Of a stretch of DNA of 35,792 bases, positions 10,069 through 28,650 are shown one piece after another. Positions within the stretch are counted from its first letter, which is position 1, and the number at the start of each line of letters is the position of its first letter. The notes under the pieces were generated by a model. It was given only the letters and a program-made list of their open reading frames with translations, did not search any database and was not told the origin of the DNA. The stretch is taken from the IMG/VR virus record IMGVR_UViG_3300021130_000163, positions 1 through 35,792 of that record. One strand, 5' to 3'. A program made the position numbers and the translations under genes. The DNA comes from a virus.

Positions 10069-10902
10069 ATGAAAACAAGTAAATTAATTACCTTCGTTAT
10101 GGGTATAATAATTGCTTTTAATGTACTTGCTGGAGATAACAGCATTTATATTCAACAAGCTGGTGACAATGCCACTGTAAATATGACACAAGATGGGGCA
10201 GGCAACATTATTCAAGGTGTTCCAAGCGTAGGTTCTGGTTCAACAAACCCAGCACTTATTAATGGTAATAACAACACTGTAAATGTTACACAAACAGGTA
10301 CAGGCGACACTTTGAGTCTTGGTGTTCAAACTTCTGTTGCTAACGGAATTAGTGGTGGAAACATTTTTAACTATTCTGTAACAGGCAACAACTCGAATGC
10401 ATACATCGACAGTAATGCTAATGGTTTGGGCGTAAGCGCAAGTAACTCCATTACTGCAACACAAACTGGCAACAATTCATATTTTAATGCTAATGTTCTA
10501 GGAACAGCTAACGTTTTAAATGTGACTACTGCTGGTGGCTCATATAACAGTGTAACTGCGACTCAAAACGGTAATAACAATAATGACACAATTAATGTTT
10601 CTGGTGGTGGCAACAACACAATCAACATTGAACAAGGTATTGGCGGTTCAGCATTGGGTGGATTACAATCTGCACAATTTAGCTATAATGGTACTGTTAA
10701 TTTAACTGTATCTGGAGCAAGCAATACCGTTGACATTGGCCAAACAGGTAGCACAGGGTTTACTGACACAGCAACTATTTCATTAACTGGTTCAGGCAAT
10801 AGTGTGAATATTTTACAAAATGCAGCTATTGGCAACACAACAATCAGTTTGACAAGTGTCGGTTCAAATAACTCGTTCACATTACACACGAACGCTCACT
10901 AA
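10069..10902 (+). CDS. Curlin-repeat (CsgA/CsgB-like) amyloid protein
   Basis: A 277-residue secreted protein. A signal peptide (about residues 1-21, ending VLA) is followed by a mature protein rich in Asn, Thr, Gly, Ser and Gln and nearly free of charge. The first repeat (NSIYIQQAGDNATVNMTQDG) fits the curlin pattern S-x5-Q-x-G-x-x-N-x-A-x-V. Similar units recur with Q-x-G and N-N-x spacings (for example VNVTQTG, ITATQTG, VTATQNG, INIEQG, VDIGQTG and VNILQN), roughly a dozen strand-turn units. It is longer than E. coli CsgA or CsgB (about 151 residues). It directly follows csgG, as expected for a substrate of that pore. Whether it is the major fibre subunit or the nucleator cannot be told from sequence. 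Confidence 0.85.
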   Translation: MKTSKLITFVMGIIIAFNVLAGDNSIYIQQAGDNATVNMTQDGAGNIIQGVPSVGSGSTNPALINGNNNTVNVTQTGTGDTLSLGVQTSVANGISGGNIFNYSVTGNNSNAYIDSNANGLGVSASNSITATQTGNNSYFNANVLGTANVLNVTTAGGSYNSVTATQNGNNNNDTINVSGGGNNTINIEQGIGGSALGGLQSAQFSYNGTVNLTVSGASNTVDIGQTGSTGFTDTATISLTGSGNSVNILQNAAIGNTTISLTSVGSNNSFTLHTNAH

Positions 10903-10903
10903 A

Positions 10904-12034
10904 ATGAACAGAGGGGTATTAATTCTACTCCTTCTGTTTGCTTCTGTGAGTTATGCTTCTTTCGCAGGAATAGGTTCTATTACTGAACAAACAAATTCTC
11001 CTGGGACAATAAAAAGATCAAATCAAATTATTTCTGGAGTAAAAGGTTCTCCGATTGAAATGAATGATTCTGTTCAAACTCAAATCGGAAAACTTGGAAT
11101 ATTATTCGAGGATCAAACTCGCGTAGAAATTAATGAACACTCCAAATTAGTCATTGACGATTTCGTTTACGATCCAAAAAGCAAATCAGGTGGCAAACTT
11201 GGATTGAAATTCGCACAGGGAACTATGCGCTATGCTTCAGGTGCAATTGCTCATAATGATCCAAGCAGTGTAAAGTTGAACACTCCATCAGCCACAATTG
11301 GTGTTCGTGGTACTGACTTCTCAGCAACTGTTGATGAGTTCGGTGAAAGCACAATTATTCTATTGCCAAGCTGCCCTAAGAATTGGGTAGACATTGAACG
11401 CGATTGTAAAACAGGAATCATTGATGTGTACAATGACGCAGGTTTAGTTACACTTGATAAACCATTTCAAGGAACTAAAGTTGTTAATCGTAACATGCCT
11501 CCATTAAAGCCAACTACTTTGAATCTAACAGCGGACCAGATTAATAATCTTTTGATTGTTTCTCCACCACAAGAACTAACTCAAAAAGATAAGAAAGATA
11601 AAGGTGAACAAAAAAGCTACCACGCTGGTGACATGCTTGAAGTTGATTTTCTAAAACAAGACTTCCTAAAGAACGAATTAGCGCAGAATTTTTTTGGTGA
11701 TAATCCTCTAACACAACCATTGTTACAACAGAGCTTTCTAGAAGACATATTTGATATTTTGTCTAAACAGTTATTGCAAGATAACTCTGAGTTGTTAGCG
11801 AATTTATTGAATCCTGAAAATCAATTATTACCTGACTGGTTTAAAGAAAGTTTAGTTACAAAACAAGTAACCACATTAGAAGTAGATCTATGTAGAAATG
11901 ACGGCAGCAACGTTCAATGTGTTTATGTGCCGAAAGATCAAAATACATTGCTTGTACAAGTACAAGACGGTGTTACTATTAAAAATAGAGTAAATAGTGG
12001 TAAAAGTACAATTATAACATTGAGACAGAACTAA
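10904..12034 (+). CDS. FecR-domain periplasmic or surface protein
   Basis: A 376-residue exported protein. A signal peptide spans about residues 1-18 (LILLLLFASVSYA). A FecR domain covers about 40-165: GSPIEMNDSVQTQIGKLG, then a beta-rich segment with FEDQTRVEINEHSKL, and the family signature TPSATIGVRGTDFSATV near 125-142. Two Cys (SCPKNW, RDCKTG) follow and could form a disulfide. The C-terminal half is Leu/Gln-rich helical and ends in a strand region. There is no membrane anchor or partner sigma factor, unlike classical FecR. In many bacteria secreted FecR-domain proteins are encoded next to CHASE2 adenylate cyclases, as here with one gene between. The ATG at 10904 is chosen over an upstream GTG-type start because it places the signal at the N-terminus. 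Confidence 0.85.
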   Translation: MNRGVLILLLLFASVSYASFAGIGSITEQTNSPGTIKRSNQIISGVKGSPIEMNDSVQTQIGKLGILFEDQTRVEINEHSKLVIDDFVYDPKSKSGGKLGLKFAQGTMRYASGAIAHNDPSSVKLNTPSATIGVRGTDFSATVDEFGESTIILLPSCPKNWVDIERDCKTGIIDVYNDAGLVTLDKPFQGTKVVNRNMPPLKPTTLNLTADQINNLLIVSPPQELTQKDKKDKGEQKSYHAGDMLEVDFLKQDFLKNELAQNFFGDNPLTQPLLQQSFLEDIFDILSKQLLQDNSELLANLLNPENQLLPDWFKESLVTKQVTTLEVDLCRNDGSNVQCVYVPKDQNTLLVQVQDGVTIKNRVNSGKSTIITLRQN

Positions 12035-13317
12035 TGAAAAGATTATTTGCAGCATTACTATTATTGATTTGTTTTCCTGCCAAAGCAGATATTACTAACG
12101 AACATTTTAGTTTCAGTCAAGTCTTTGACGTACAATGGTACATCAGCGGCGGTGTATTGCATGCTTCAAGTTTCAATTATCTTTTTGCCAGCCAACCTTC
12201 TAATGCTAGATTGACTTCAAGTCAAACAGCAGCATATGCCAATGCTGGCGATTATATCGCATTCTTTCACAGTACAACTAATCCTGGAACTTATGGTTTA
12301 GGCGTTTATGATCCTAACGGAAATCTAGTTAGAGTATTAGATAACACTGGAACATTTACTGCATTGGCAAATGGCGCGATATTTTATAATGGTGCAGGAA
12401 TGTGGGGGACGTTGTTTACAACTTTACAGGGATACGCTATCGGTGGAAGTGGAAGCTGGACAGTTACTGTAAGTAATCCTTCTAACAGTTATATGCAGTC
12501 ATACACTCCAACCAACACACAGCCACTGGGTACTGGTCAAACATATACACCTACACCAACATATACAAGTGTAATTACATCTGCTGAGCAAACAAGATAC
12601 AATGCAGCTGAAGCTCGCCTCAATGCTTTAAGCGGAGATAGCATTTACATCTCACAATCCTCTGGTGGTGGGAATATTGTAAGCGTCATACAGAATGGTA
12701 AGAAAGAAAGCGTTGATGGTATTAATCAACAAAATGCGCAAATACAAGGTGGCGGTAATATCGTAACAGTCAATCAAGGTGATCCTGTTGCTTTATATGG
12801 TAACAATCTAATTGATTTGAGTGTCTTGGGAAGTTCAAATACATTGAACCTCAATCAAGGATACGATACAAATGGAAACTATACTGGCACTGATATGGGT
12901 GGACATTATCAATATGTTTCAATAAATGGTTCTGCGAACAATGTCACAACACAGCAAGAAGGTCAAAGTCAATATGGTGAAGTGAACATCACTGGGAACA
13001 ATAATACACAAATTATGGTCCAAACAGGATTCAATCATCAATTGTTCTCTATGATAAATGGTAACAGTAATACTATAAATACAATGCAGACTGGAGCTGC
13101 TGGAAACTTTCTTGACATTACGCTTTCTGGTGACGGGAACTCAGCTATTGTCAATCAAAGTGGGACCACACAAAATAAAGCAACAATAAGTATAACAAAT
13201 GCGGGCGGTCCAGGCAGTGTCAATTTAACCCAAACTGGTGGGCAGGTTTATAGCATAAGCACAACTTGTGTAACTGCAGGAGGCTGTGGCACCGTTACTG
13301 TAAGACAAGGAAACTAA
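12034..13317 (+). CDS. Large curlin-repeat protein with extra N-terminal domain
   Basis: A 427-residue secreted protein. A signal peptide spans residues 1-18 (ending PAKA). Residues about 19-160 form a non-repetitive, beta-rich domain (FSFSQVFDVQWYISGG ... GDYIAFFHSTTNPGTYGLGVYDPNGNLV) that I do not recognise by family. A Thr/Pro/Tyr-rich linker (about 160-185) leads to curlin-type repeats from about 205 to the end (DSIYISQSSGGGNIVSVIQNG, VTVNQG, LNLNQG, INTMQTG, AIVNQSG, VNLTQTG, VTVRQGN). Two Cys near the end (TTCVTAGGCGT) could form a disulfide. The N-terminal domain could anchor the amyloid or bind a surface. It overlaps the FecR gene's stop by one base. Likely a second curli subunit, perhaps nucleator or anchor; the role is inferred. 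Confidence 0.78.
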   Translation: MKRLFAALLLLICFPAKADITNEHFSFSQVFDVQWYISGGVLHASSFNYLFASQPSNARLTSSQTAAYANAGDYIAFFHSTTNPGTYGLGVYDPNGNLVRVLDNTGTFTALANGAIFYNGAGMWGTLFTTLQGYAIGGSGSWTVTVSNPSNSYMQSYTPTNTQPLGTGQTYTPTPTYTSVITSAEQTRYNAAEARLNALSGDSIYISQSSGGGNIVSVIQNGKKESVDGINQQNAQIQGGGNIVTVNQGDPVALYGNNLIDLSVLGSSNTLNLNQGYDTNGNYTGTDMGGHYQYVSINGSANNVTTQQEGQSQYGEVNITGNNNTQIMVQTGFNHQLFSMINGNSNTINTMQTGAAGNFLDITLSGDGNSAIVNQSGTTQNKATISITNAGGPGSVNLTQTGGQVYSISTTCVTAGGCGTVTVRQGN

Positions 13318-13318
13318 T

Positions 13319-15361
13319 ATGAAGAAGATATTGTTAAGTCCTTGGACAGCCTTAATTACTTTAGCTGTAATGTTGGCAGTTCGCGTTGTAGATCCAACTT
13401 TCGTAGAAAGTGTTCGATTAAGATATTTCGATACACTGATTACCAATAAGAAACCCTCTCCCGAAGAAGTTCCAATCAACATCGTCAACATTGACGAAGA
13501 TGCATTGAACAAATATGGTCAATGGCCATTACCTCGTACTGAATACGCTAAGATCGTAAATGAATTGTATGCTCGTAACGCAGGACTTGTTGTTCTTGAC
13601 GTTATGTTTAGCGAACAAGATCGTTTAAATGGCGACAGTGCTTTGGCTTCTGTTATGATTCAACATCCAGTTGTATTGGTAAATGTACCGAGCGATAAAA
13701 CTAAGAATACTCCAAAGAAACCTGGAACTGCTGTAATCAACAGCGACTTCCAAGATCGCATCGTAAAGTATCCAGGGATTATTGCTAATATTCCATTGCT
13801 AGAACAATATGCATTTGGTGTTGGTACAATCAACACACTTCCTGAAATTGATGGCGTCAATCGCCGTGTTCCTTTGATCACAAGTGTCAATGGTAATCTA
13901 TATCCATCATTGGGTATGGAAATTATTCGTGCTGCTTCAGGTGACAGCACAACACAAATTAAATTAAATGAGCTTGGTGTTGAGAAAATGCGAGTGCCAG
14001 CATTTGGTCCAATCACCACAGATAATCTTGGTCGTATTTGGGTAGACTTCTCTACACCAATTAAAACAACTTCACTTACAAATCTACCAAAAGATTTCGG
14101 CAACAGTATTGTAATCGTTGGACCAACTGCTGCAGGTATTGCTAACCCAGTTCCTACTGCCGTTGGCGCTGTTTATCCGCATTATTTACAAGCACAAGTT
14201 GCAGCAACCATGATGAATGGTGTTGTAATTTCAAGACCAGACTACGCTGACGGATTAGAGTTGCTATTCGTTGCTATTTCAGGTATACTATTATTAGTTC
14301 TAACAAGGTGGACTTATGTCGGTTTGGGATCGATTGTTGTTATCGTTGGTGGTGCTGCGTATGGCAGCCACTATGCTTTTAGTAATCATCTTTTACTATT
14401 TGATATCACTCTCCCCATCGCAGCGACAATCCTTGTGTCACTCCACGCCTATGGTGTCAAGTTTGTCTCAGAATTTTTGCAGAAGCAACAAATAAAGAAA
14501 CAGTTCGGCACTTACTTGTCGCCAGCAATGGTTGAGAAGTTACAAAAGAATCCAGAGTTGTTAGCACTTGGCGGCGAATCAAGAGAACTGTCAATTATGT
14601 TTACTGATGTTCGCGGCTTCACAACTATCAGCGAACATTATGGTAAAGACGTTCAAGGTCTAACAAAGATCATGAATCGTTATATGACAGCAATGACTGC
14701 CAAGATTTTAGAGAACAACGGAACTCTTGACAAGTACATTGGTGATGCTCAAATGGCTTTTTGGAATGCTCCACTTGATGACGCAGAACACGCAAAGAAT
14801 GCTGTAAGAACTGCGATTGCTATGATGACCGACTTGGAGAATTTTAATGAGGAAATTGCTAAAGAAGGAGTTCCTGCTTTTGGGATGGGTCTTGGTATTA
14901 ATACTGATGTTGTTGTCGTGGGCAATATGGGTAGTAGTCAACGTTTTGACTATACTTGCCTTGGTGATGGAGTAAATTTAGCAAGCAGACTAGAAGGTCA
15001 ATCAAAACCATATGGTGTTAAGATTGTTCTTGGACCAAGAACTGCTGAATTGGTCAAAGACGAATTCCCAGTAATTGAGTTAGACTTACTTGCTGTTAAG
15101 GGTAAGACTGAACCAGTTAAAATTTATACTTTAGCACCATCTAATGATAGCATGGCTGATGCAATGCATGTTAAATTCCTAAAAGCATATAGAAAAGGTG
15201 ACTGGAAAGGTGCCAAGTTTTATATTAATGGCATGAAGAACGATGGATTGAAAACTGCATGGGGCGGTCAGATGGCTAAATATTATGACATGATGCTTGA
15301 GAGAATGGAAGGAAATCCTCCAGAAAATTGGGATGGCGTCTATAGAGCTACCTCAAAATGA
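13319..15361 (+). CDS. CHASE2-domain receptor adenylate cyclase (class III)
   Basis: A 680-residue membrane receptor. One membrane segment near residues 7-22 is followed by a periplasmic CHASE2 sensor (about 25-300, with NIVNIDEDALNKYGQWPLPR and GLVVLDVMFSE typical of the family), then three membrane segments (about 310-385), a linker helix and a class III cyclase domain (about 420-605). Catalytic residues are all present: metal aspartates Asp430 (FTDVRGF) and Asp476 (KYIGDAQ), adenine-selecting Lys472 and Thr546, and transition-state Asn553 and Arg557 (GDGVNLASR). The domain should therefore make cAMP from ATP. CHASE2 senses unknown periplasmic signals. The partner is plausibly the FecR-domain protein two genes upstream. 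Phage-borne intact receptor cyclases are unusual to my knowledge. Confidence 0.93.
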   Translation: MKKILLSPWTALITLAVMLAVRVVDPTFVESVRLRYFDTLITNKKPSPEEVPINIVNIDEDALNKYGQWPLPRTEYAKIVNELYARNAGLVVLDVMFSEQDRLNGDSALASVMIQHPVVLVNVPSDKTKNTPKKPGTAVINSDFQDRIVKYPGIIANIPLLEQYAFGVGTINTLPEIDGVNRRVPLITSVNGNLYPSLGMEIIRAASGDSTTQIKLNELGVEKMRVPAFGPITTDNLGRIWVDFSTPIKTTSLTNLPKDFGNSIVIVGPTAAGIANPVPTAVGAVYPHYLQAQVAATMMNGVVISRPDYADGLELLFVAISGILLLVLTRWTYVGLGSIVVIVGGAAYGSHYAFSNHLLLFDITLPIAATILVSLHAYGVKFVSEFLQKQQIKKQFGTYLSPAMVEKLQKNPELLALGGESRELSIMFTDVRGFTTISEHYGKDVQGLTKIMNRYMTAMTAKILENNGTLDKYIGDAQMAFWNAPLDDAEHAKNAVRTAIAMMTDLENFNEEIAKEGVPAFGMGLGINTDVVVVGNMGSSQRFDYTCLGDGVNLASRLEGQSKPYGVKIVLGPRTAELVKDEFPVIELDLLAVKGKTEPVKIYTLAPSNDSMADAMHVKFLKAYRKGDWKGAKFYINGMKNDGLKTAWGGQMAKYYDMMLERMEGNPPENWDGVYRATSK

Positions 15362-16779: not shown

Positions 16780-16802
16780 GGCGCATACTAGACGTATGTG
16801 TC
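16780..16802 (+). terminator. Candidate hairpin terminator at module boundary
   Basis: A 9-base-pair stem (GGCGCATAC with GTATGTGTC, two G-U pairs) closes a five-base loop, followed by a T-rich stretch (ACTTTATTCTTT). It lies in the 65-base gap between the last lysis-region gene and the primase, where late and replication modules meet. The T-run is interrupted, so confidence is modest. It could instead shape translation of the primase. Confidence 0.4.
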
Positions 16803-16824
16803 ACTTTATTCTTTGGTTTATATT

Positions 16825-17901
16825 ATGTCAGTTTACATTGATCGAAAATATCTTTTGCTAGTCTCATCGAGACTTGAAAGATTCGCACAAAAGAAAGATG
16901 ATCTGTTTAATTTCAGATGCCCCTTTTGCGGCGATTCTAAAAAGAACAAATTAAAAGCCAGAGGATATGTTTTTAGGAAAAACAATGATTACTTCTATAC
17001 ATGCCACAACTGCCATCTCGGAACGACATTCTCAAAGTTCCTCAAGCACATCGACAGTCACACCTACTCACAATACACACTCGAACGTTACTCCAACGGA
17101 GAGAACGGACATTCAAATTACACAAAGCCAAATTTTGACCTCGCAGGACCCAAAGCATCAGAGGTATTTTCTGGAGAAAGAGCTGATTTACAAGATAACG
17201 AACGGGAAAGTCGTGTTAATATCAGAAACTGCTCCTTCCCAGGTCTGGTTAGCGTAGATAAACTAGAGCCTGAACACTACGCTCGGAAATATATAGAAGG
17301 TAGGAAGATTCCAGAGCAATTCTGGAATGAAGTCTTTTACACTGAAAAATATAAGGACTTCATGGACACTGCTTTTCCTGATCACGGAAAAGAAGATATT
17401 CCTAATGATGATCGTATCGTATTGTTTTACACGGACAAGGAAGGCAACATCACCAATGTCACAGGTCGAGCACTTGGTCAGTCTAAAGTCCGTTACTGTA
17501 CGGTCAAAATTACAGAAGATAAAAAGCTGTTCGGATTGCACAGGTTGCAGTTCGACAAAACTGTTTATGTCCTCGAGGGTCAATTCGATTCTTTCTTTAT
17601 TGAGAATAGCGTTGCCAGCGGCGATAGTAATTTGGGCAGTTCTGCAGACTATCTTGATGCATCTGAAGTAGTTTTAGTTTATGATCGTGAGCCAAGAAAT
17701 AAAGATATCGTAAAACAAATCAACAAAGCAATTCAAAATGATTATGCTGTTGTTTTGTTTCCTGATACTATTGAAGGCAAAGATATTAATGAAATGATTT
17801 TGAGTGGAATGAGTTCTGAAGAAATTATGAGTGTTATGAAAGAAAACACGTTTCAAGGGCTTACTGCTAAACTTAAGTTTGTAGACTGGAGAAAATGTTG
17901 A
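16825..17901 (+). CDS. T4 gp61-like DNA primase
   Basis: A 358-residue primase. The N-terminal zinc-binding domain shows CPFCGDSKKNKLKARGYVF (about 31-50) and the second pair CHNC near residue 62. The TOPRIM-type core follows: YVLEGQFDSFF (near 250), a D-S-N-L-G-S-S block, VVLVYDREPRN and the late acidic VVLFPDTIEGKDINEMI. Length and motif order fit phage T4 gp61 (342 residues), which makes short RNA primers on the helicase for lagging-strand synthesis. A GTG at 16798 would add nine residues. The ATG at 16825 is preferred because related primases begin 'MSxYIDxKYL'. It overlaps the next gene by seven bases. Confidence 0.88.
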   Translation: MSVYIDRKYLLLVSSRLERFAQKKDDLFNFRCPFCGDSKKNKLKARGYVFRKNNDYFYTCHNCHLGTTFSKFLKHIDSHTYSQYTLERYSNGENGHSNYTKPNFDLAGPKASEVFSGERADLQDNERESRVNIRNCSFPGLVSVDKLEPEHYARKYIEGRKIPEQFWNEVFYTEKYKDFMDTAFPDHGKEDIPNDDRIVLFYTDKEGNITNVTGRALGQSKVRYCTVKITEDKKLFGLHRLQFDKTVYVLEGQFDSFFIENSVASGDSNLGSSADYLDASEVVLVYDREPRNKDIVKQINKAIQNDYAVVLFPDTIEGKDINEMILSGMSSEEIMSVMKENTFQGLTAKLKFVDWRKC

Positions 17902-18635
17902 AAAAGTATAAATCAATTTTTATTTCAGATGTCCACTTAGGAACTCGAGGTTGCAAAGCTGAATTGCTTTGCGACTTTCTAAAGAATAATAGTTGCGAGA
18001 ATCTATTTCTAGTCGGAGACATTATCGATGGTTGGAGATTAGAACGCAACTTCTATTGGCCACAATCTCACACAAACGTGATTCGCCGCTTTCTCACAGC
18101 AGCTAAACGTGACACTAATGTGATATACATTGCTGGCAACCATGATGAATTTCTAAGAAAATTCTTAAGATACGATATTTCTATCGGCAATATTCTAATC
18201 GAGAATCAACACATGCATACTGGCGTTGACGGTAAGAAATATCTTGTCGTTCATGGTGATATGTTTGACACTGCTATTCGCAACAAACTAAAATGGCTGT
18301 ACCATCTAGGCGACTTCTTATATGATGTTCTATTACGATTGAATGTCGTTGTAAACTTTTTCCGCAAGTCATTCGGCTACAAATATTGGAGCCTAAGTAA
18401 ATACCTCAAAGGTGTAACCAAAGAGGCTGTTTCTTACATGTCAGACTTTGAGGAATTGATAGCGGATTATTGTAAGAAACGCAATGCGGATGGTATTATT
18501 TGCGGTCACATTCATAAAGCTGATATCAAAGAAATCAATGGTATTATGTATATGAATGATGGTGATTGGGTGGAATCATGCACTGCTCTTGTTGAGCATC
18601 ATGATGGAACTTGGGAGATTATAAACTGCTTATGA
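17895..18635 (+). CDS. plcP: PlcP-like metallophosphoesterase (phospholipase C type)
   Basis: A 246-residue calcineurin-like phosphoesterase with all five metal motifs: SDVHLG (Asp12, His14), VGDIIDG (Asp42), GNHDEF (Asn82, His83), VVHGD (His120) and CGHIH (His205, His207). The family blocks GDIIDGWRL, YWPQSH, YWSLSKYLK and NDGDWVESCTALVEH match PlcP (SMc00171-type) proteins. These are often misannotated as LpxH/UDP-2,3-diacylglucosamine diphosphatase, but in marine bacteria and Sinorhizobium they cut phospholipids to diacylglycerol under phosphate limitation. The overlap with the primase (7 bases) and the ATGA junction to the glycosyltransferase put it in one operon. The PlcP call rests on remembered family similarity and the neighbour; an LpxH role is the alternative. 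Confidence 0.78.
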   Translation: MLKKYKSIFISDVHLGTRGCKAELLCDFLKNNSCENLFLVGDIIDGWRLERNFYWPQSHTNVIRRFLTAAKRDTNVIYIAGNHDEFLRKFLRYDISIGNILIENQHMHTGVDGKKYLVVHGDMFDTAIRNKLKWLYHLGDFLYDVLLRLNVVVNFFRKSFGYKYWSLSKYLKGVTKEAVSYMSDFEELIADYCKKRNADGIICGHIHKADIKEINGIMYMNDGDWVESCTALVEHHDGTWEIINCL

Positions 18636-19624
18636 AAAAGAAAATAGTTATATTTACAGATGCTTGGTATCCACAAGTAAATGGCGTGGTTACAACTTAC
18701 AGTAATCTTGTACAACACATTGATCATGACATATATGATGTTGATGTTGTTGAACCATCTATGTTTAGCACATTCAACATTCCATTCTATAAAGAAATCC
18801 AATTATCATGGTGCACTCAAAATAGAATGCGAGAAATCATTAAAGATCTTGGCGTAGTGTATCGCTACCATATCGCAACTGAAGGACCAATTGGCTATGC
18901 TGCAAAAACAGTATTAGACAGTATGGGAATTGGATACACAACTGCATATCACACTAAGTTTCCAGAATATCTAGAAAGAATGATGTTGATTCCTCATAAA
19001 TTGACGAAAAGATACATCGATCATTTCCATAAAAAATCAAGATTTGTTTTTGTGCCTTCTAAATCTGTAGCTAATGAAAATCCGCAATGGAATACGAAGA
19101 TAATTGGCAAGGGTGTTGGCGAACATTTTACACCAAGACAAAATGAAAAACTTTATAATAAAGATTCCAAAGTTCTTCTTTATGTTGGACGTGTTTCTTC
19201 TGAGAAAAATGTTGAAGACTTCTGTAGAATTTATATTCCAGGAACACATAAAATCGTTGTTGGAAATGGTCCAGACAAGAAGAGACTCAAAAGAAAATAT
19301 CCTGATGTAAATTTTGTTGGATATAAATTTGGTCACGAATTAGCTCAGTTTTATAGAAGTGCTGATGTATTTATTTTCCCTAGCAAGACAGATACTTTCG
19401 GCAATGTTATTCTAGAAGCAATGGCATGCGGTACACCTGTAGCTGCTTATGATGTAACTGGTCCACGCGATCAAATCACCAATGGTTTGAATGGTTACAT
19501 GGGCATGAGTTTAACAAATGCAGTAAACAAATGTTTTGCTTTAGATCGAAATAACGTTTATAATAGCGTTACGCATTTGACTTGGAAGAATGCAGCGGAT
19601 AAATTTATAGAGGATATATCATGA
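18632..19624 (+). CDS. Agt/MgtA-like GT4 glycosyltransferase (glycolipid synthesis)
   Basis: A 330-residue GT-B fold glycosyltransferase of family 4. The N-terminus (IVIFTDAWYPQVNGVVTTY) and PSMFSTFNIPFYKEIQLSW are hallmarks of the MgtA/Agt group. The acceptor loop ATEGPIGYAAK, the nucleotide-sugar domain start LLYVGRVSSEKN and the donor motif PSKTDTFGNVILEAMACGTPVAAYDVTGP are present. In bacteria this group sits next to plcP and adds a hexose or glucuronic acid to diacylglycerol, making phosphorus-free glycolipids. Here it starts by ATGA overlap with the PlcP-like gene, the same arrangement. An alternative role in glycan synthesis is possible. The ATG at 18632 is chosen over an upstream TTG because MKKKIVIFTD is the family's natural start. 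Confidence 0.82.
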   Translation: MKKKIVIFTDAWYPQVNGVVTTYSNLVQHIDHDIYDVDVVEPSMFSTFNIPFYKEIQLSWCTQNRMREIIKDLGVVYRYHIATEGPIGYAAKTVLDSMGIGYTTAYHTKFPEYLERMMLIPHKLTKRYIDHFHKKSRFVFVPSKSVANENPQWNTKIIGKGVGEHFTPRQNEKLYNKDSKVLLYVGRVSSEKNVEDFCRIYIPGTHKIVVGNGPDKKRLKRKYPDVNFVGYKFGHELAQFYRSADVFIFPSKTDTFGNVILEAMACGTPVAAYDVTGPRDQITNGLNGYMGMSLTNAVNKCFALDRNNVYNSVTHLTWKNAADKFIEDIS

Positions 19625-20298
19625 AAGTAAAATTAATTTCATACACACAACCAACTCATGAAATGTCAATGGATTTGAGATCAACTATGCCAAGCGATTT
19701 GGTTGCATATTGTGCTAGAGTTTCAAATCCTAGCAATCAAAAGAATAAACAAACAGCTGATAAGTTGATAAAATATCTTTTAGATAATAGACATTTTAGT
19801 CCGCTTGAGATGGTAAATGCGACTCTTGAAATAGAAACAACAAGAGATATCGCTCGTCAAATTTTAAGACATCGTTCTTTCTCATTCCAAGAGTTCAGTC
19901 AACGTTACGCTGATCCAACCAAAGACTTGGATTTCGTCACCAGAGAAGCAAGATTACAAGATCTAAAGAATCGTCAAAACAGCATCAGCGAAGGTGTTGA
20001 TCCATATGTGCAAGCAGGTTGGGATAAGATTCAAAGAGATCTTATTCAAAGCTCAAAAACAGCATATAAGTGGGCGATAGATAATGGAATCGCCAAAGAA
20101 CAAGCAAGAGCAGTCCTACCAGAAGGTCTGACGGTGAGCCGTTTATACATGTCTGGAACACTACGTTCATGGGTACACTATATACAACTGCGCAGTGCTA
20201 ATGGAACTCAAAAAGAACACATGGAAGTTGCTGTTGCTTGTGCTGAGGCAATTGCCCCAGTCTTTCCGATTATTTTAAATTTTGTAGAAAAGGTGTAA
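19621..20298 (+). CDS. thyX: Flavin-dependent thymidylate synthase
   Basis: A 225-residue ThyX. The signature RHRSFSFQEFSQRY (form RHRxxSxxExSxRY) near residues 82-95 binds FAD and dUMP, and the C-terminal block LPEGLTVSRLYMSGTLRSWVHYIQLR carries the nucleophilic-type Ser/Arg region of the family. It converts dUMP to dTMP using methylene-tetrahydrofolate and NADPH, feeding phage DNA synthesis. It is coupled by ATGA to the glycosyltransferase and followed by a MazG-like gene and ribonucleotide reductase. Confidence 0.96.
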   Translation: MKVKLISYTQPTHEMSMDLRSTMPSDLVAYCARVSNPSNQKNKQTADKLIKYLLDNRHFSPLEMVNATLEIETTRDIARQILRHRSFSFQEFSQRYADPTKDLDFVTREARLQDLKNRQNSISEGVDPYVQAGWDKIQRDLIQSSKTAYKWAIDNGIAKEQARAVLPEGLTVSRLYMSGTLRSWVHYIQLRSANGTQKEHMEVAVACAEAIAPVFPIILNFVEKV

Positions 20299-22596: not shown

Positions 22597-23558
22597 AGAA
22601 AAACTTAAAACTAACAGAAGAAAGATCATACTTCAAACCATTCAATTATCCATGGGCATATAATGCTTGGTTGAAGCATGAACAAGCTCACTGGTTACAC
22701 ACAGAAGTTCCAATGGTTGAGGATGTGAAGGATTGGAAGAAACGTCTAAATGATTCAGAAAAGAAGTTTCTAACCAACATCTTTCGTTTCTTCACACAAG
22801 GCGACATTGACGTTGCTGGTGGATATGTAAAGAACTATTTGCCACACTTCCCACAACCAGAAGTTCGTATGATGCTTGCTGGCTTTGCTGCTCGTGAAGC
22901 ATTACACATTGCTGCATATTCTCATCTTATTGAGACATTGGGAATGCCTGACTCAACTTATAATGAATTCTTGCAATATCAAGAAATGAAAGATAAACAT
23001 GACTATATTCTAAATTCTAATGCTTCTATTGCTGAAAACATCGCATTGTTCTCAGCATTTACAGAAGGTTTACAGTTGTTTAGTTCTTTCATTATGTTGT
23101 TGAACTTCCCACGTCATGGTCTAATGAAAGGTATGGGACAAATTGTTACATGGTCTATTGTTGATGAAACAATGCACTGCGAATCAATGATCAAATTGTT
23201 TAGAACATACATTGAAGAAAATCGTGAACTTTGGAATGATGAGCTGAAAGGTAAAATCTATACCATTGCTACAAAAATGGTTGAGCTTGAAGATAAGTTT
23301 ATTGATCTTGCTTTCAGCATGGGACCAATGAAAGAATTGTCAGCTGAAGAAGTAAAGCAATACATCCGTTACATTGCTGATCGCCGTTTGATTAGCATGG
23401 GTATGAAAGGTATCTTCAAAGTCAAGAAGAATCCATTACCATGGGTTGAAGAAATGATCAATGCTCCAACGCATACAAACTTCTTCGAGAACCGTGCAAC
23501 GGACTATGCGAAAGGTGCATTATCAGGCACATGGGAAGAAGTTTGGGCAAAGGGGTAA
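22590..23558 (+). CDS. nrdB: Class I ribonucleotide reductase, small subunit
   Basis: A 322-residue ferritin-like radical subunit. Metal ligands can be aligned with E. coli NrdB: Asp72 (TQGDIDV), Glu103 and His106 (REALHIAAY), a later Glu in FTEGLQLF, and Glu/His in DETMHCES. The radical tyrosine is Tyr110, seven residues after Glu103 as in E. coli (Glu115, Tyr122), so a standard tyrosyl-radical enzyme is expected. It pairs with NrdA. The ATG lies inside the preceding micro-gene. The following SOD gene starts 2 bases after its stop. Confidence 0.95.
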   Translation: MVKKNLKLTEERSYFKPFNYPWAYNAWLKHEQAHWLHTEVPMVEDVKDWKKRLNDSEKKFLTNIFRFFTQGDIDVAGGYVKNYLPHFPQPEVRMMLAGFAAREALHIAAYSHLIETLGMPDSTYNEFLQYQEMKDKHDYILNSNASIAENIALFSAFTEGLQLFSSFIMLLNFPRHGLMKGMGQIVTWSIVDETMHCESMIKLFRTYIEENRELWNDELKGKIYTIATKMVELEDKFIDLAFSMGPMKELSAEEVKQYIRYIADRRLISMGMKGIFKVKKNPLPWVEEMINAPTHTNFFENRATDYAKGALSGTWEEVWAKG

Positions 23559-23560
23559 AA

Positions 23561-24100
23561 ATGAAATTCAATCAATTTTTAAATGAGAATCGTGAAAAGA
23601 TTTATCAGAAATCTTTAAACTTCCCTAAGAGTTATTTAAGCCCAATAATGAGCGAAGCTACAATCAACTATCATTTTATTGGACTTGCTTCAAAATACTT
23701 TGAGCGATATAATAAAGGTGAAGGGGATCCTGATTTTAATTATGGTGGCGCAATGCTTCATAATATCTTCTTTGAACAATTCACTAAACCATATTCATCT
23801 CAATATGGTAAAATTATTAAAGCGAAAGTCAATCGCAAGTATGGGAGTTTAGATGGATTGAAAGATGCTTTCGAAAAAGAAGCAATGGCTATCCAAGGAA
23901 GCGGTTGGGTTTATCTCGATTATAAGATGAACATTCATACAATTCATAATCATGAATACGATGATGATATGAAGATTGTACTTCTTATTGACTGGTGGGA
24001 GCATGCATGGGCATTAGACTATCAAGCAGATAAGAAAAGCTATCTAAAGAACATTTGGGACATTATCGACTGGAACGTAATTAACGAAAGGTGCTTATAA
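23561..24100 (+). CDS. Fe/Mn superoxide dismutase-like protein
   Basis: A 179-residue Fe/Mn SOD. The four metal ligands are visible: His38 (NYHFIGLASKYFERYN), His67 (GGAMLHNIFFEQF), Asp144 and His148 (DWWEHAWALDYQ, the DxWEH signature). SGWVYL and the C-terminal WDIIDWNVINER also fit the family. It begins MKFNQFLNENREK, an N-terminal extension resembling T4 capsid-targeting peptides and absent from bacterial SODs, which usually begin near the first helix. An enzyme packaged in the head is therefore possible (inference). It sits between nrdB, whose radical is oxygen-sensitive, and thioredoxin. Start ATG at 23561 follows GGGGTAAAA. Confidence 0.88.
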   Translation: MKFNQFLNENREKIYQKSLNFPKSYLSPIMSEATINYHFIGLASKYFERYNKGEGDPDFNYGGAMLHNIFFEQFTKPYSSQYGKIIKAKVNRKYGSLDGLKDAFEKEAMAIQGSGWVYLDYKMNIHTIHNHEYDDDMKIVLLIDWWEHAWALDYQADKKSYLKNIWDIIDWNVINERCL

Positions 24101-27309: not shown

Positions 27310-27703
27310 ATTAAACCACATTAGAGAGCTTCAAATAAAAGAAGATGATGTTGATGGTATTTCATTTAGTATCGATGAAGACAAAACCAACGAAGATCAA
27401 ATCGCTTGGGACTTTAATATTATGAAACTGAGTGACGACTTATCCAGAGATTTTCATAAACATGAACTTGGATATATGTACCAAATTGTACTATATAAAG
27501 ATGATGAAGCCGAAGTATTTGAAGCAATTATTGGTGATATGAAACATTATGTGAAGGGTCTTGTTCGCGTCAATCAAGAAGGGTTGATCGTCAAGAAGTG
27601 TAAGAAATCTGAAGAAATAATGGATAAAATATTCAAGGGTGAATTTGCTGAAGCTTTAAAGCAGGGCAGAATAAAAACACCGAGAACTGCAGAGGCTGTA
27701 TGA
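27299..27703 (+). CDS. Conserved-looking small phage protein, unknown
   Basis: A 134-residue mixed acidic/basic protein with no recognised domain. The first third is acidic (EDDVDGISFSIDEDKTNEDQIAWDF) and the second half contains LVRVNQEGLIVKKCKKSEEIMDKIF. An AAAAAGGAG ribosome site just before the ATG at 27299 decides the start. It overlaps the resolvase by 11 bases and the following SDR gene by four (ATGA). Confidence 0.6.
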   Translation: MGSKLNHIRELQIKEDDVDGISFSIDEDKTNEDQIAWDFNIMKLSDDLSRDFHKHELGYMYQIVLYKDDEAEVFEAIIGDMKHYVKGLVRVNQEGLIVKKCKKSEEIMDKIFKGEFAEALKQGRIKTPRTAEAV

Positions 27704-28650
27704 AAAATCATTATTTGGTGGCTGGTGCTGCTGGCTTTTTGGGATCTCATTTAACTAAACGATTATTGGATGATGGCAATGAAGTTACAGTGGTTGACAA
27801 CCTGTGTACAGGTAATATTAAAAATATTGAACCGTTTTTCAGAAACAATAATTTCAGCTATGTCAATCGTGATATTAACGATACTGGCATCGTTCGTTTA
27901 TTCCGCGACTATAATTTCGATGGGATTTTTAATCTTGCTTGCCCAGCTAGTCCAATCCATTACCAAAACATTCCAATCGAAACCACCCTCACCTGTGTAG
28001 TGGGAACAAACAACTTATTACAATTGGCATTGAATCATGGCAGTAAAATTCTCCAAGCGTCTACTTCCGAAGTATATGGTGATCCCGAGATTAGCCCACA
28101 ACATGAGCACTATGTGGGACACGTTAACAGTTATGGTCCGAGGGCTTGTTACGATGAGGGTAAACGTGCCGCTGAAGCTCTTTTCTATGATTATAAACGC
28201 ATTCACAATGTCGATACTCGTATTATCCGCATATTTAATACTTACGGTCCTAATATGTCTGTTAACGATGGTCGTGTCGTAAGCAACTTCATTGTACAAG
28301 CATTAAGAGATCAAGACATCACAATCTATGGTGATGGTTCTCAAACAAGAAGCTTCTGTTATGTGGACGATAACATCGAAGGCATGTTGGCTGTTTTCAA
28401 TTCTAATATTTCAACTCCTGTGAACATTGGTAATCCTCAAGAATTTACAATGTTAGAGTTGGCTCAAAAGATTATTAGAATTACACATTCAAAATCTAAT
28501 ATTTCATTTCAACCACTGCCTCAAGATGATCCAAAACAGCGCAGACCTGATATTGGACTCGCTATGTCATTGAATTGGCAGCCCAAAAAATTAATTGACA
28601 ATGGGCTATATGATACGGTACAATATTTCCGTGAAGTGTTAAATTCTTAA
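27700..28650 (+). CDS. UDP-glucuronate decarboxylase-like SDR epimerase
   Basis: A 316-residue extended short-chain dehydrogenase. The NAD site is GAAGFLGSHL (about 9-18). Family blocks follow: VVDNLCTGN, NLACPASPIHYQ, STSEVYGDPEISPQHE, GPRACYDEGKRAAEAL (with the YxxxK catalytic pair), RIFNTYGPNM and GDGSQTRSFCYVDD. These are the signatures of UDP-xylose synthase (UXS). It would make UDP-xylose, or a related sugar, from UDP-glucuronate. This supplies a nucleotide sugar for glycan modification alongside the GH130-like, FkbM-type, sulfotransferase and methyltransferase genes in this region. Confidence 0.9.
   Translation: MKNHYLVAGAAGFLGSHLTKRLLDDGNEVTVVDNLCTGNIKNIEPFFRNNNFSYVNRDINDTGIVRLFRDYNFDGIFNLACPASPIHYQNIPIETTLTCVVGTNNLLQLALNHGSKILQASTSEVYGDPEISPQHEHYVGHVNSYGPRACYDEGKRAAEALFYDYKRIHNVDTRIIRIFNTYGPNMSVNDGRVVSNFIVQALRDQDITIYGDGSQTRSFCYVDDNIEGMLAVFNSNISTPVNIGNPQEFTMLELAQKIIRITHSKSNISFQPLPQDDPKQRRPDIGLAMSLNWQPKKLIDNGLYDTVQYFREVLNS

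Follow-up and report, generated by a model that had tools for sequence, protein, structure and literature searches.

What does a phage gain from a predicted phospholipase and a predicted lipid glycosyltransferase encoded back to back? The question is raised by IMG/VR virus record IMGVR_UViG_3300021130_000163, a stretch of 35,792 nucleotides analysed whole and called the window here. Its plcP-like gene encodes a metallophosphoesterase (MPE) and runs directly into a gene for an Agt-like glycosyltransferase (GT) of family GT4. The initial annotation read the pair as a lipid-renovation system, which replaces phospholipids by phosphorus-free glycolipids. Our analysis supports that interpretation through the enzyme families, the linkage of the two genes in viruses and the Agt residues of the GT, and from these we infer enzyme activity and a benefit to the phage. 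The pair is probably a phage-borne cassette for membrane lipid renovation.

The proposed pathway has two steps. The PlcP-like enzyme would remove the phosphate head group from host phosphatidylglycerol (PG) and phosphatidylethanolamine (PE) during infection, leaving diacylglycerol (DAG). The Agt-like enzyme would then add a sugar from a UDP-sugar to DAG, forming a phosphorus-free glycolipid. This glycolipid would stand in for the lost phospholipid so that the membrane stays sound, and the phage would gain phosphate esters for its own DNA. In other phages a compact family GT2 enzyme takes the place of Agt, and phages with plcP alone could lean on the Agt of the host.

Both genes in the window are real and intact. 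They overlap as the initial annotation claimed. The junction reads ctgcttATGAaaaag, with the plcP stop codon TGA at 18633-18635 and the GT start codon ATG at 18632-18634. The same 4-base overlap joins plcP and agt1 of Pseudomonas aeruginosa, the adjacent genes PA3219 and PA3218 (PMC8528852; papers are cited by such identifiers, each for part of its text). In 289 Alphaproteobacteria genomes, 105 PlcP-like matches occur in 102 genomes. In 100 of the 105, an Agt-like GT follows on the same strand no more than 500 bases downstream; in one the order is reversed. Given the shared overlap and this synteny, the adjacency in the window is not chance. The resemblance to the bacterial plcP-agt pair, in which both functions are proven (PMC8528852, PMC4796936, PMC8231724), thus extends to families, order, overlap and motifs, as had been proposed.

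The window MPE shares 54% identity with P. aeruginosa PlcP and 46% with Sinorhizobium meliloti PlcP, against 19-26% with seven LpxH proteins. Reference PlcP and Agt genes were found by synteny. The S. meliloti reference, which adjoins genes for an acyl-homoserine-lactone synthase and a LuxR-type regulator, is presumably SMc00171, and the GT beside plcR in P. aeruginosa we take from its neighbours to be PA0842, agt2. PA3219 and S. meliloti PlcP are themselves 46% identical (PMC8528852), which puts the window MPE within the spread of proven PlcPs. It carries all five metallophosphoesterase motifs (DVHLG, GDIIDGW, GNHDE, HGD and CGHIH) and is expected, from its sequence, to cleave PG and PE to DAG.

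The GT was compared with GTcp of SAR11 strain HTCC7211, a characterized Agt (PMC8231724). Both named Agt motifs, GRVAXEKN and FPSXTDTFG, are present in the window GT as GRVSSEKN and FPSKTDTFG, and the catalytic His104 and Asp256 are kept. In all, 12 of 14 key GTcp residues are retained (G16, G82, G85, H104, R190, K195, D256, T257, F258, G259, E264 and W320), with positions carried over not from the GTcp sequence but from a bacterial relative that agrees with the GTcp numbering at 12 of 14. Identity is 39% to Agt1 and 32% to Agt2, compared with 25% to WaaG and 27% to WaaB; GT searches used the 18635-19624 protein, without the first methionine. A tree with 18 viral and 26 of 29 bacterial representatives groups the window GT with the 18 viral GT4 proteins and three bacterial Agt-like proteins (support 96). 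These three come from small genomes of 1.4-1.6 Mb, and the stretches from two of them have 30-32% GC; our guess is that the genomes are Pelagibacterales. Proven Agt1 and Agt2 lie in other Agt-like clades. The initial annotation had taken the GT for Agt/MgtA-like, as opposed to a lipopolysaccharide (LPS) mannosyltransferase. The grouping with Agt-like proteins stands, as does the distance from WaaG and WaaB, which sit on very long branches and not on one side of a branch; these two were the only LPS enzymes in the tree, which held no LPS mannosyltransferase by which to judge that part of the claim. The window GT is expected to add a sugar to DAG.

The pair had been predicted to recur in viral contigs, and it was found in many. 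For each viral scan the best 80 loci were kept and inspected, and the locus sets share contigs. The window PlcP fetched 132 viral stretches. Among the best 80, 79 have a GT within 1 kb behind plcP, of which 32 are Agt-like GT4 and 47 are GT2; neither type is present at one locus (L003). The GT query added four loci, all with a GT4 partner; L082 was dropped as a duplicate of L002, itself a near copy of the window (99%), and L086, L087 and L089 were left out as loci without plcP. The genes are close, with gaps of at most 121 bases before GT2 and at most 237 before GT4, except in 5 of 36 cases at 574-938. The viral loci are redundant, and at 95% PlcP identity 41 remain (24 GT4, 16 GT2 and 1 with none).

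Reciprocal scans gave the same picture, with the bias that their GT profiles derive from GTs next to plcP and so favour loci of that kind. The GT4 scan returned at least 440 viral stretches, and 78 of the best 80 have plcP within 1.5 kb upstream while 2 are without. The GT2 scan returned 512, and of the best 80, 74 have plcP within 1.5 kb upstream, 4 are ended by the contig and 2 are without. A PlcP profile matched at least 513 viral stretches; 71 of the best 80 have a GT (43 GT4, 28 GT2) and 1 is too short. T4-type hallmark genes were sought in 26 records, namely the window and 25 mostly long contigs. Gp23 is found in 7, Terminase_6N in 7, and one or both in 8. Contigs with plcP-GT4 and both hallmarks are L004, L007, L023, L069 and L088 (L004 and L007 look like near copies), and L032 has the terminase only; for plcP-GT2, L065 has both and L075 has Gp23. 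Six single contigs therefore carry plcP-GT together with both hallmarks. The GT4 gene sits 631 bases behind plcP in L032 and 938 in L088. The window is one example of a widespread viral module.

Several neighbours of the module were noted by eye. Open reading frames (ORFs) resembling fatty acid desaturases lie beside it in L377 (1294-1998) and downstream of GT2 in L016; PMC11480375 cites work on lipid desaturases of cyanophages. Separately, CAKLQH020000017.1 (L092), an 'Acinetobacter phage' record, has mgtA, bcrC, iscX, ndk and rodZ close together and looks like bacterial chromosome.

The viral GT2 partner is compact, at about 240 amino acids. It matches Pfam Glycos_transf_2 and, above cut-off, GT21 (4 of 4 scanned). 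Its best NCBIfam model, an arsenosugar GT, is far below cut-off, and its nearest solved folds are teichoic-acid and polysaccharide GTs, which imply no donor or acceptor. Relatives are scarce in bacteria: at E 1e-15 they occur in 6 of 398 Pseudomonadota genomes, at 31-34% identity, and these 6 do not overlap with the 126 genomes that have a PlcP match at E 1e-60. Switches of partner between GT4 and GT2 number about 7 on the PlcP tree, at least 4 of them forced by supported branches, while shuffled labels need 13. This is a quick tree with half of its inner branches drawn open, and it includes three bacterial rows, two counted as GT4. Replacement of Agt by GT2 in other phages suggests that DAG must be capped and that the kind of GT is exchangeable, and the near-constant presence of a GT of either family fits a need to cap DAG so that the membrane holds. 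GT2 is a candidate new lipid glycosyltransferase.

Sites resembling PhoB boxes stand before plcP in part of the phages. The strict box, CTGTCAT-N4-CTGTCAT, was discarded, with matches in the window at chance level (5 against 4.97 expected) and at best 11 of 14 positions in viral upstreams, in 4 of 81. A relaxed pattern, YTGTMAY-N4-YTGTMAY, was chosen after the upstreams had been viewed, which makes its discovery-set counts post hoc. In that set of 47 non-redundant viral upstreams, 14 have repeats of at least 12 of 14 before plcP (background 1.9%), and 9 reach at least 13 of 14, against at most 1 at each of 15 other spacings. For an independent test, 139 upstreams were reduced to 86 by dropping near copies and those like earlier ones. 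At least 13 of 14 positions match in 13 of the 86, against 16 of 6051 background stretches (0.26%), and 12 other spacings give 0 or 1. These statistics count related upstreams as independent. By eye, TAAATA lies between box and start in all 13 box-bearing rows. In the bacterial set, 19 of 76 upstreams have repeats of at least 12 of 14 (shuffled 1.3%).

The nearest relative of the window, a contig with an 87% identical PlcP and a 67% identical GT (L305), has a 13 of 14 box. Box-like sites also precede PstS-like genes, matching 14 of 14 in L054 (711-1727) and 12 of 14 in L003 (1576-3316). Another PstS-like gene, named by eye, lies near viral plcP in L392. For cyanophage S-PM2d, box prediction in phages is described as unreliable without binding data (PMC10976474). 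The search for Pho boxes that the initial annotation had suggested succeeded before plcP in relatives and failed for the window itself. Where such sites occur, the host phosphate-starvation regulator would switch the cassette on, and the cassette may sometimes be under host PhoB control.

Could the pair serve the cell surface instead? The GT might modify host LPS or another glycan against superinfection or re-adsorption, with the MPE supplying or trimming a lipid-linked intermediate and phosphorus not being the point. Many phages carry GTs for surface change. The affinities of GT2 to teichoic-acid, polysaccharide and arsenosugar enzymes lean this way, as does the rarity of PstS-like genes beside the module, and glycolipid exchange would itself alter the envelope. 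However, GT4 has the Agt residue set and groups with Agt-like proteins, not with WaaG or WaaB. For GT4 and GT2 alike, nearly every inspected locus couples the GT gene to one for a PlcP-family enzyme, and the box-like sites point to phosphate. We regard a surface role as unlikely.

A second alternative is that DAG or glycolipid serves to make the membrane softer or thinner ahead of lysis or virion release, not to harvest phosphate. DAG and monoglucosyl lipids favour non-bilayer phases, and phages with plcP and no GT would suit such a role. Yet a GT that would remove DAG is attached in nearly all inspected loci, and the box-like sites again argue against it. There is only a small chance that lysis is the purpose.

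An LpxH-type role for the MPE, as a UDP-2,3-diacylglucosamine hydrolase, with the pair serving lipid A synthesis, is strongly disfavoured. The initial annotation held that MPEs of this sort are commonly labelled LpxH, and public records indeed carry that type of label; the closest solved fold is likewise LpxH. Yet the window MPE scores far below the cut-offs of both curated LpxH models (51.3 bits against 134, and 40.1 against 190.35). Six of seven LpxH proteins have GNRD, the Bacteroides LpxH having GNHD, whereas GNHD is found in the window, both proven PlcPs and 82 of 83 viral proteins. A quick tree of 73 rows, which took in 17 viral and 40 bacterial representatives, sets the seven LpxH apart (support 99). 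It places the window in a clade of 20 (99) made up of 19 viral proteins, the window and Pelagibacter phage Mosig included, and one bacterial protein; 2 of 21 viral rows, S-SRM01 and a fecal phage, fall outside. A careful tree of 22 rows again separates LpxH, with full support (100/100). With the low identities and the Agt-like partner, these results reject an LpxH function and agree with the predicted grouping away from LpxH. Viral MPEs as one exclusive clade were also rejected (approximately unbiased test, p 0.03 against), bacterial MPE L128 being inside.

Two bacterial MPEs deserve mention. Those at L213 10546-11367 and L214 9900-10721 (genomes G187 and G491) are native-looking, 59% identical to the window MPE and have no Agt beside them. 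The G187 MPE falls inside the viral clade and is a possible source or recipient of the phage gene. A prophage origin of these closest cellular MPEs was rejected by eye, their neighbours looking like normal 63% GC chromosome.

Several findings weigh against lipid renovation as the function of the pair. The window MPE is not nested among the proven PlcPs. In the 22-row tree the two proven proteins and six bacterial PlcP-like ones form a clade of 8 (98/99) with the viral rows outside, and this clade also leaves out one native-looking bacterial MPE without agt beside it. The window row stands next to the LpxH branch, with support of 45/0, too low to place it relative to the root; the rival LpxH reading can draw on this. 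Since the viral MPEs are sister to the proven PlcPs, not within their clade, the substrate could have shifted, and PlcP-like is the safe name. The 16 best Foldseek matches of the window PlcP model (mean predicted local distance difference test score 81, with 51-64 in parts of the helical region) are LpxH; the fold search is of no use as a discriminator because LpxH is the nearest solved fold.

Further points concern the GT and the linkage. Among the predicted DAG-contact residues W320 is kept, and T162-R163 is G-K in the window GT and R-K in proven Agt1, as read from printed motif strings. In 13 of 33 viral GT4 proteins Asp256 is replaced by Glu; in GTcp this substitution removed more than 90% of the activity (PMC8231724), though proven Agt2 also has Glu. 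In the profile-based PlcP set, 8 of 80 loci lack a GT despite enough flank, and Mosig and S-SRM01 have plcP without a GT. Of 50,697 named phage records, 4 match PlcP and 19 match the GT, with none in both; HTVC008M gave no PlcP-like match. No Pho-box-like site precedes plcP in the window, where the best match is 8 of 14. Finally, PstS-like genes are rare, with 2 in 88 viral loci and PBP_like_2 in 1 of 26 viral records. One of the 8 loci lacking a GT, L387, with a 77% identical PlcP, has plcP followed directly by an ORF that is ThyX-like by eye, which is the order of the window without the GT.

The gene layout of the window places the pair in a phage setting (Table 1). The end of the primase ORF (17901) overlaps the plcP start by 7 bases. 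With the overlaps of plcP with the GT gene and of the GT gene with thyX, primase, plcP, GT and thyX look like one transcription unit. On the 3' side of plcP-GT are thyX, a PRA-PH (MazG-like) protein gene, both ribonucleotide reductase subunit genes and a superoxide dismutase gene.

Table 1. Features of the window that bear on the plcP-GT pair and its setting
Feature	Position	Strand	Evidence and remarks
csgF and csgG	8684-10067		Genes also reported for the Melnitz phage group
CHASE2 and adenylate/guanylate cyclase protein	13319-15361		Domain matches; phage-encoded membrane cyclase
DNA primase	16798..17901	+	phrog_47 DNA primase, 1.3e-71; context gene
PlcP-like metallophosphoesterase, predicted phospholipase C, 246 amino acids	17895..18635	+	Pfam Metallophos, 1.3e-13
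ATGA overlap of plcP and glycosyltransferase genes	18632..18635	+	Sequence
Agt-like GT4 glycosyltransferase, predicted diacylglycerol glycosyltransferase, 330 amino acids	18632..19624	+	Glycos_transf_1, 2.3e-25
thyX, thymidylate synthase	19621..20298	+	PF02511 Thy1, 1.1e-43; start overlaps GT end
Nucleotide-sugar dehydratase/epimerase	27700..28650	+	PF16363, PF01370

The best-ranked named-phage relatives of the window primase, at about 40-41%, are Synechococcus phages S-CAM9 and S-CAM1, which we take to be T4-like. Among 50,697 phage records, 9 match the CHASE2-cyclase, and in 6 of these (Pelagibacter phage HTVC008M and Methylophilales phages Melnitz) the match spans at least 80% of the protein; identity to the HTVC008M and Melnitz proteins is 38-39%. 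From these relatives we judge the window to be a T4-like marine phage. No named phage was closely related to it at the DNA level, with three short matches only. The idea that the contigs are bacterial DNA misbinned as viral, and the pair a host operon, could appeal to the lack of a Gp23 or Terminase_6N match in the window record and likewise in 17 of 25 other records, many of them fragments, but it is already refuted for the hallmark-bearing contigs and has almost nothing left to recommend it, given the phage-type primase, endolysin and RuvC-type resolvase of the window, its CHASE2-cyclase common to HTVC008M and Melnitz, the six contigs with both hallmarks, plcP in the isolate Mosig and the clade of 19 viral proteins and one bacterial protein apart from other bacterial PlcPs.

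The dehydratase/epimerase product scores below the cut-off of all 22 matching NCBIfam models, the best being dTDP-glucose 4,6-dehydratase; speculatively, this enzyme is a possible supplier of the sugar donor for the GT. After csgF and csgG come genes for a curlin-repeat protein (10069-10902), a FecR-domain protein and an N/Q-rich protein (12034-13317) with a weak CsgB match. csgF and csgG are reported for the Melnitz phage group, and Melnitz and the pelagimyophages are described as lacking csgA and csgB (PMC9004378); the curlin-repeat and N/Q-rich proteins of the window may be the missing fibre subunits. An iron/manganese superoxide dismutase domain is encoded at 23531-24100, directly 3' of the small ribonucleotide reductase gene.

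How does the cassette compare with known systems? It shares two families, gene order, motifs and most key residues with bacterial PlcP-Agt renovation (PA3219-PA3218, PB7211_983/PB7211_960 of SAR11 HTCC7211, and S. meliloti PlcP). Unlike these, the window pair is phage-borne between primase and thyX, its MPE belongs to a sister group of the proven PlcPs, it has no Pho-box-like site, and many viral relatives use GT2 in place of Agt. The exchange of partner has a precedent in principle, since types 3 and 5 of marine bacterial plcP neighbourhoods have glycosyltransferase genes other than agt behind plcP, and for one of the enzymes the synthesis of di- and triglycosyl-diacylglycerols is proven (PMC4796936). 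The phage arrangement is similar in that plcP is directly followed by a non-Agt glycosyltransferase that also matches Pfam GT21, and differs in that the phage GT2 has about 240 amino acids and is scarce in Pseudomonadota genomes. Cyanophage pstS and other genes under host PhoBR (PMC10976474) are likewise phage phosphate-stress genes with Pho boxes; here, in contrast, the function would be lipid recycling instead of uptake, and the 7-4-7 repeat is box-like, with PhoB binding presumed. The protein of Mosig EXVC030M, an isolated SAR11 phage, annotated as 'putative UDP-2,3-diacylglucosamine hydrolase' is PlcP-like and 55.6% identical to the window MPE. Its gene adjoins one annotated as a phosphate ABC transporter and, unlike that of the window, has no glycosyltransferase annotated beside it.

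Among the matches listed in the open-licence literature, with subscription papers beyond the reach of that search, no description of a phage plcP or a phage PlcP-Agt pair was found. lpxH is reported among surface-water viral genes (PMC10653327) and Lake Baikal viral transcripts (PMC9611531), in both cases as a label. The main text of a global ocean catalogue of auxiliary metabolic genes (PMC11360552) does not contain 'lpx', that of a soil-phage survey of phosphorus genes (PMC10987575) does not contain 'plcP', and a word search of the Mosig announcement (PMC7892664) found no mention of the plcP gene in the text covered. In low phosphate, two Pseudoalteromonas phages alter how the host handles phospholipids (PMC12282109).

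A wider proposal, for and against which we see the case as evenly balanced, is that aquatic T4-like and other phages carry a complete phospholipid-recycling cassette, often controlled by host PhoB and hidden under the name LpxH. Its first enzyme would be constant and the second position freely filled by either GT4 (Agt) or a GT2 family specific to phages, which would represent a new diacylglycerol glycosyltransferase. Phosphorus from host phospholipid would pass to the phage during infection, and the membranes left behind would be rich in glycolipid. Phage surveys that use KEGG or LpxH labels count such genes as lipopolysaccharide synthesis. Should many viral 'lpxH' genes turn out to be plcP, aquatic viruses would have a role in recycling phosphorus that has so far been misclassified. 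The first gene is already available in an isolate, Mosig on SAR11, and the module allows a direct test of whether phospholipid is swapped for glycolipid on infection and whether this pays for phage DNA in phosphate-poor water. If this is true, remodelling of the host membrane during infection may release scarce phosphorus.

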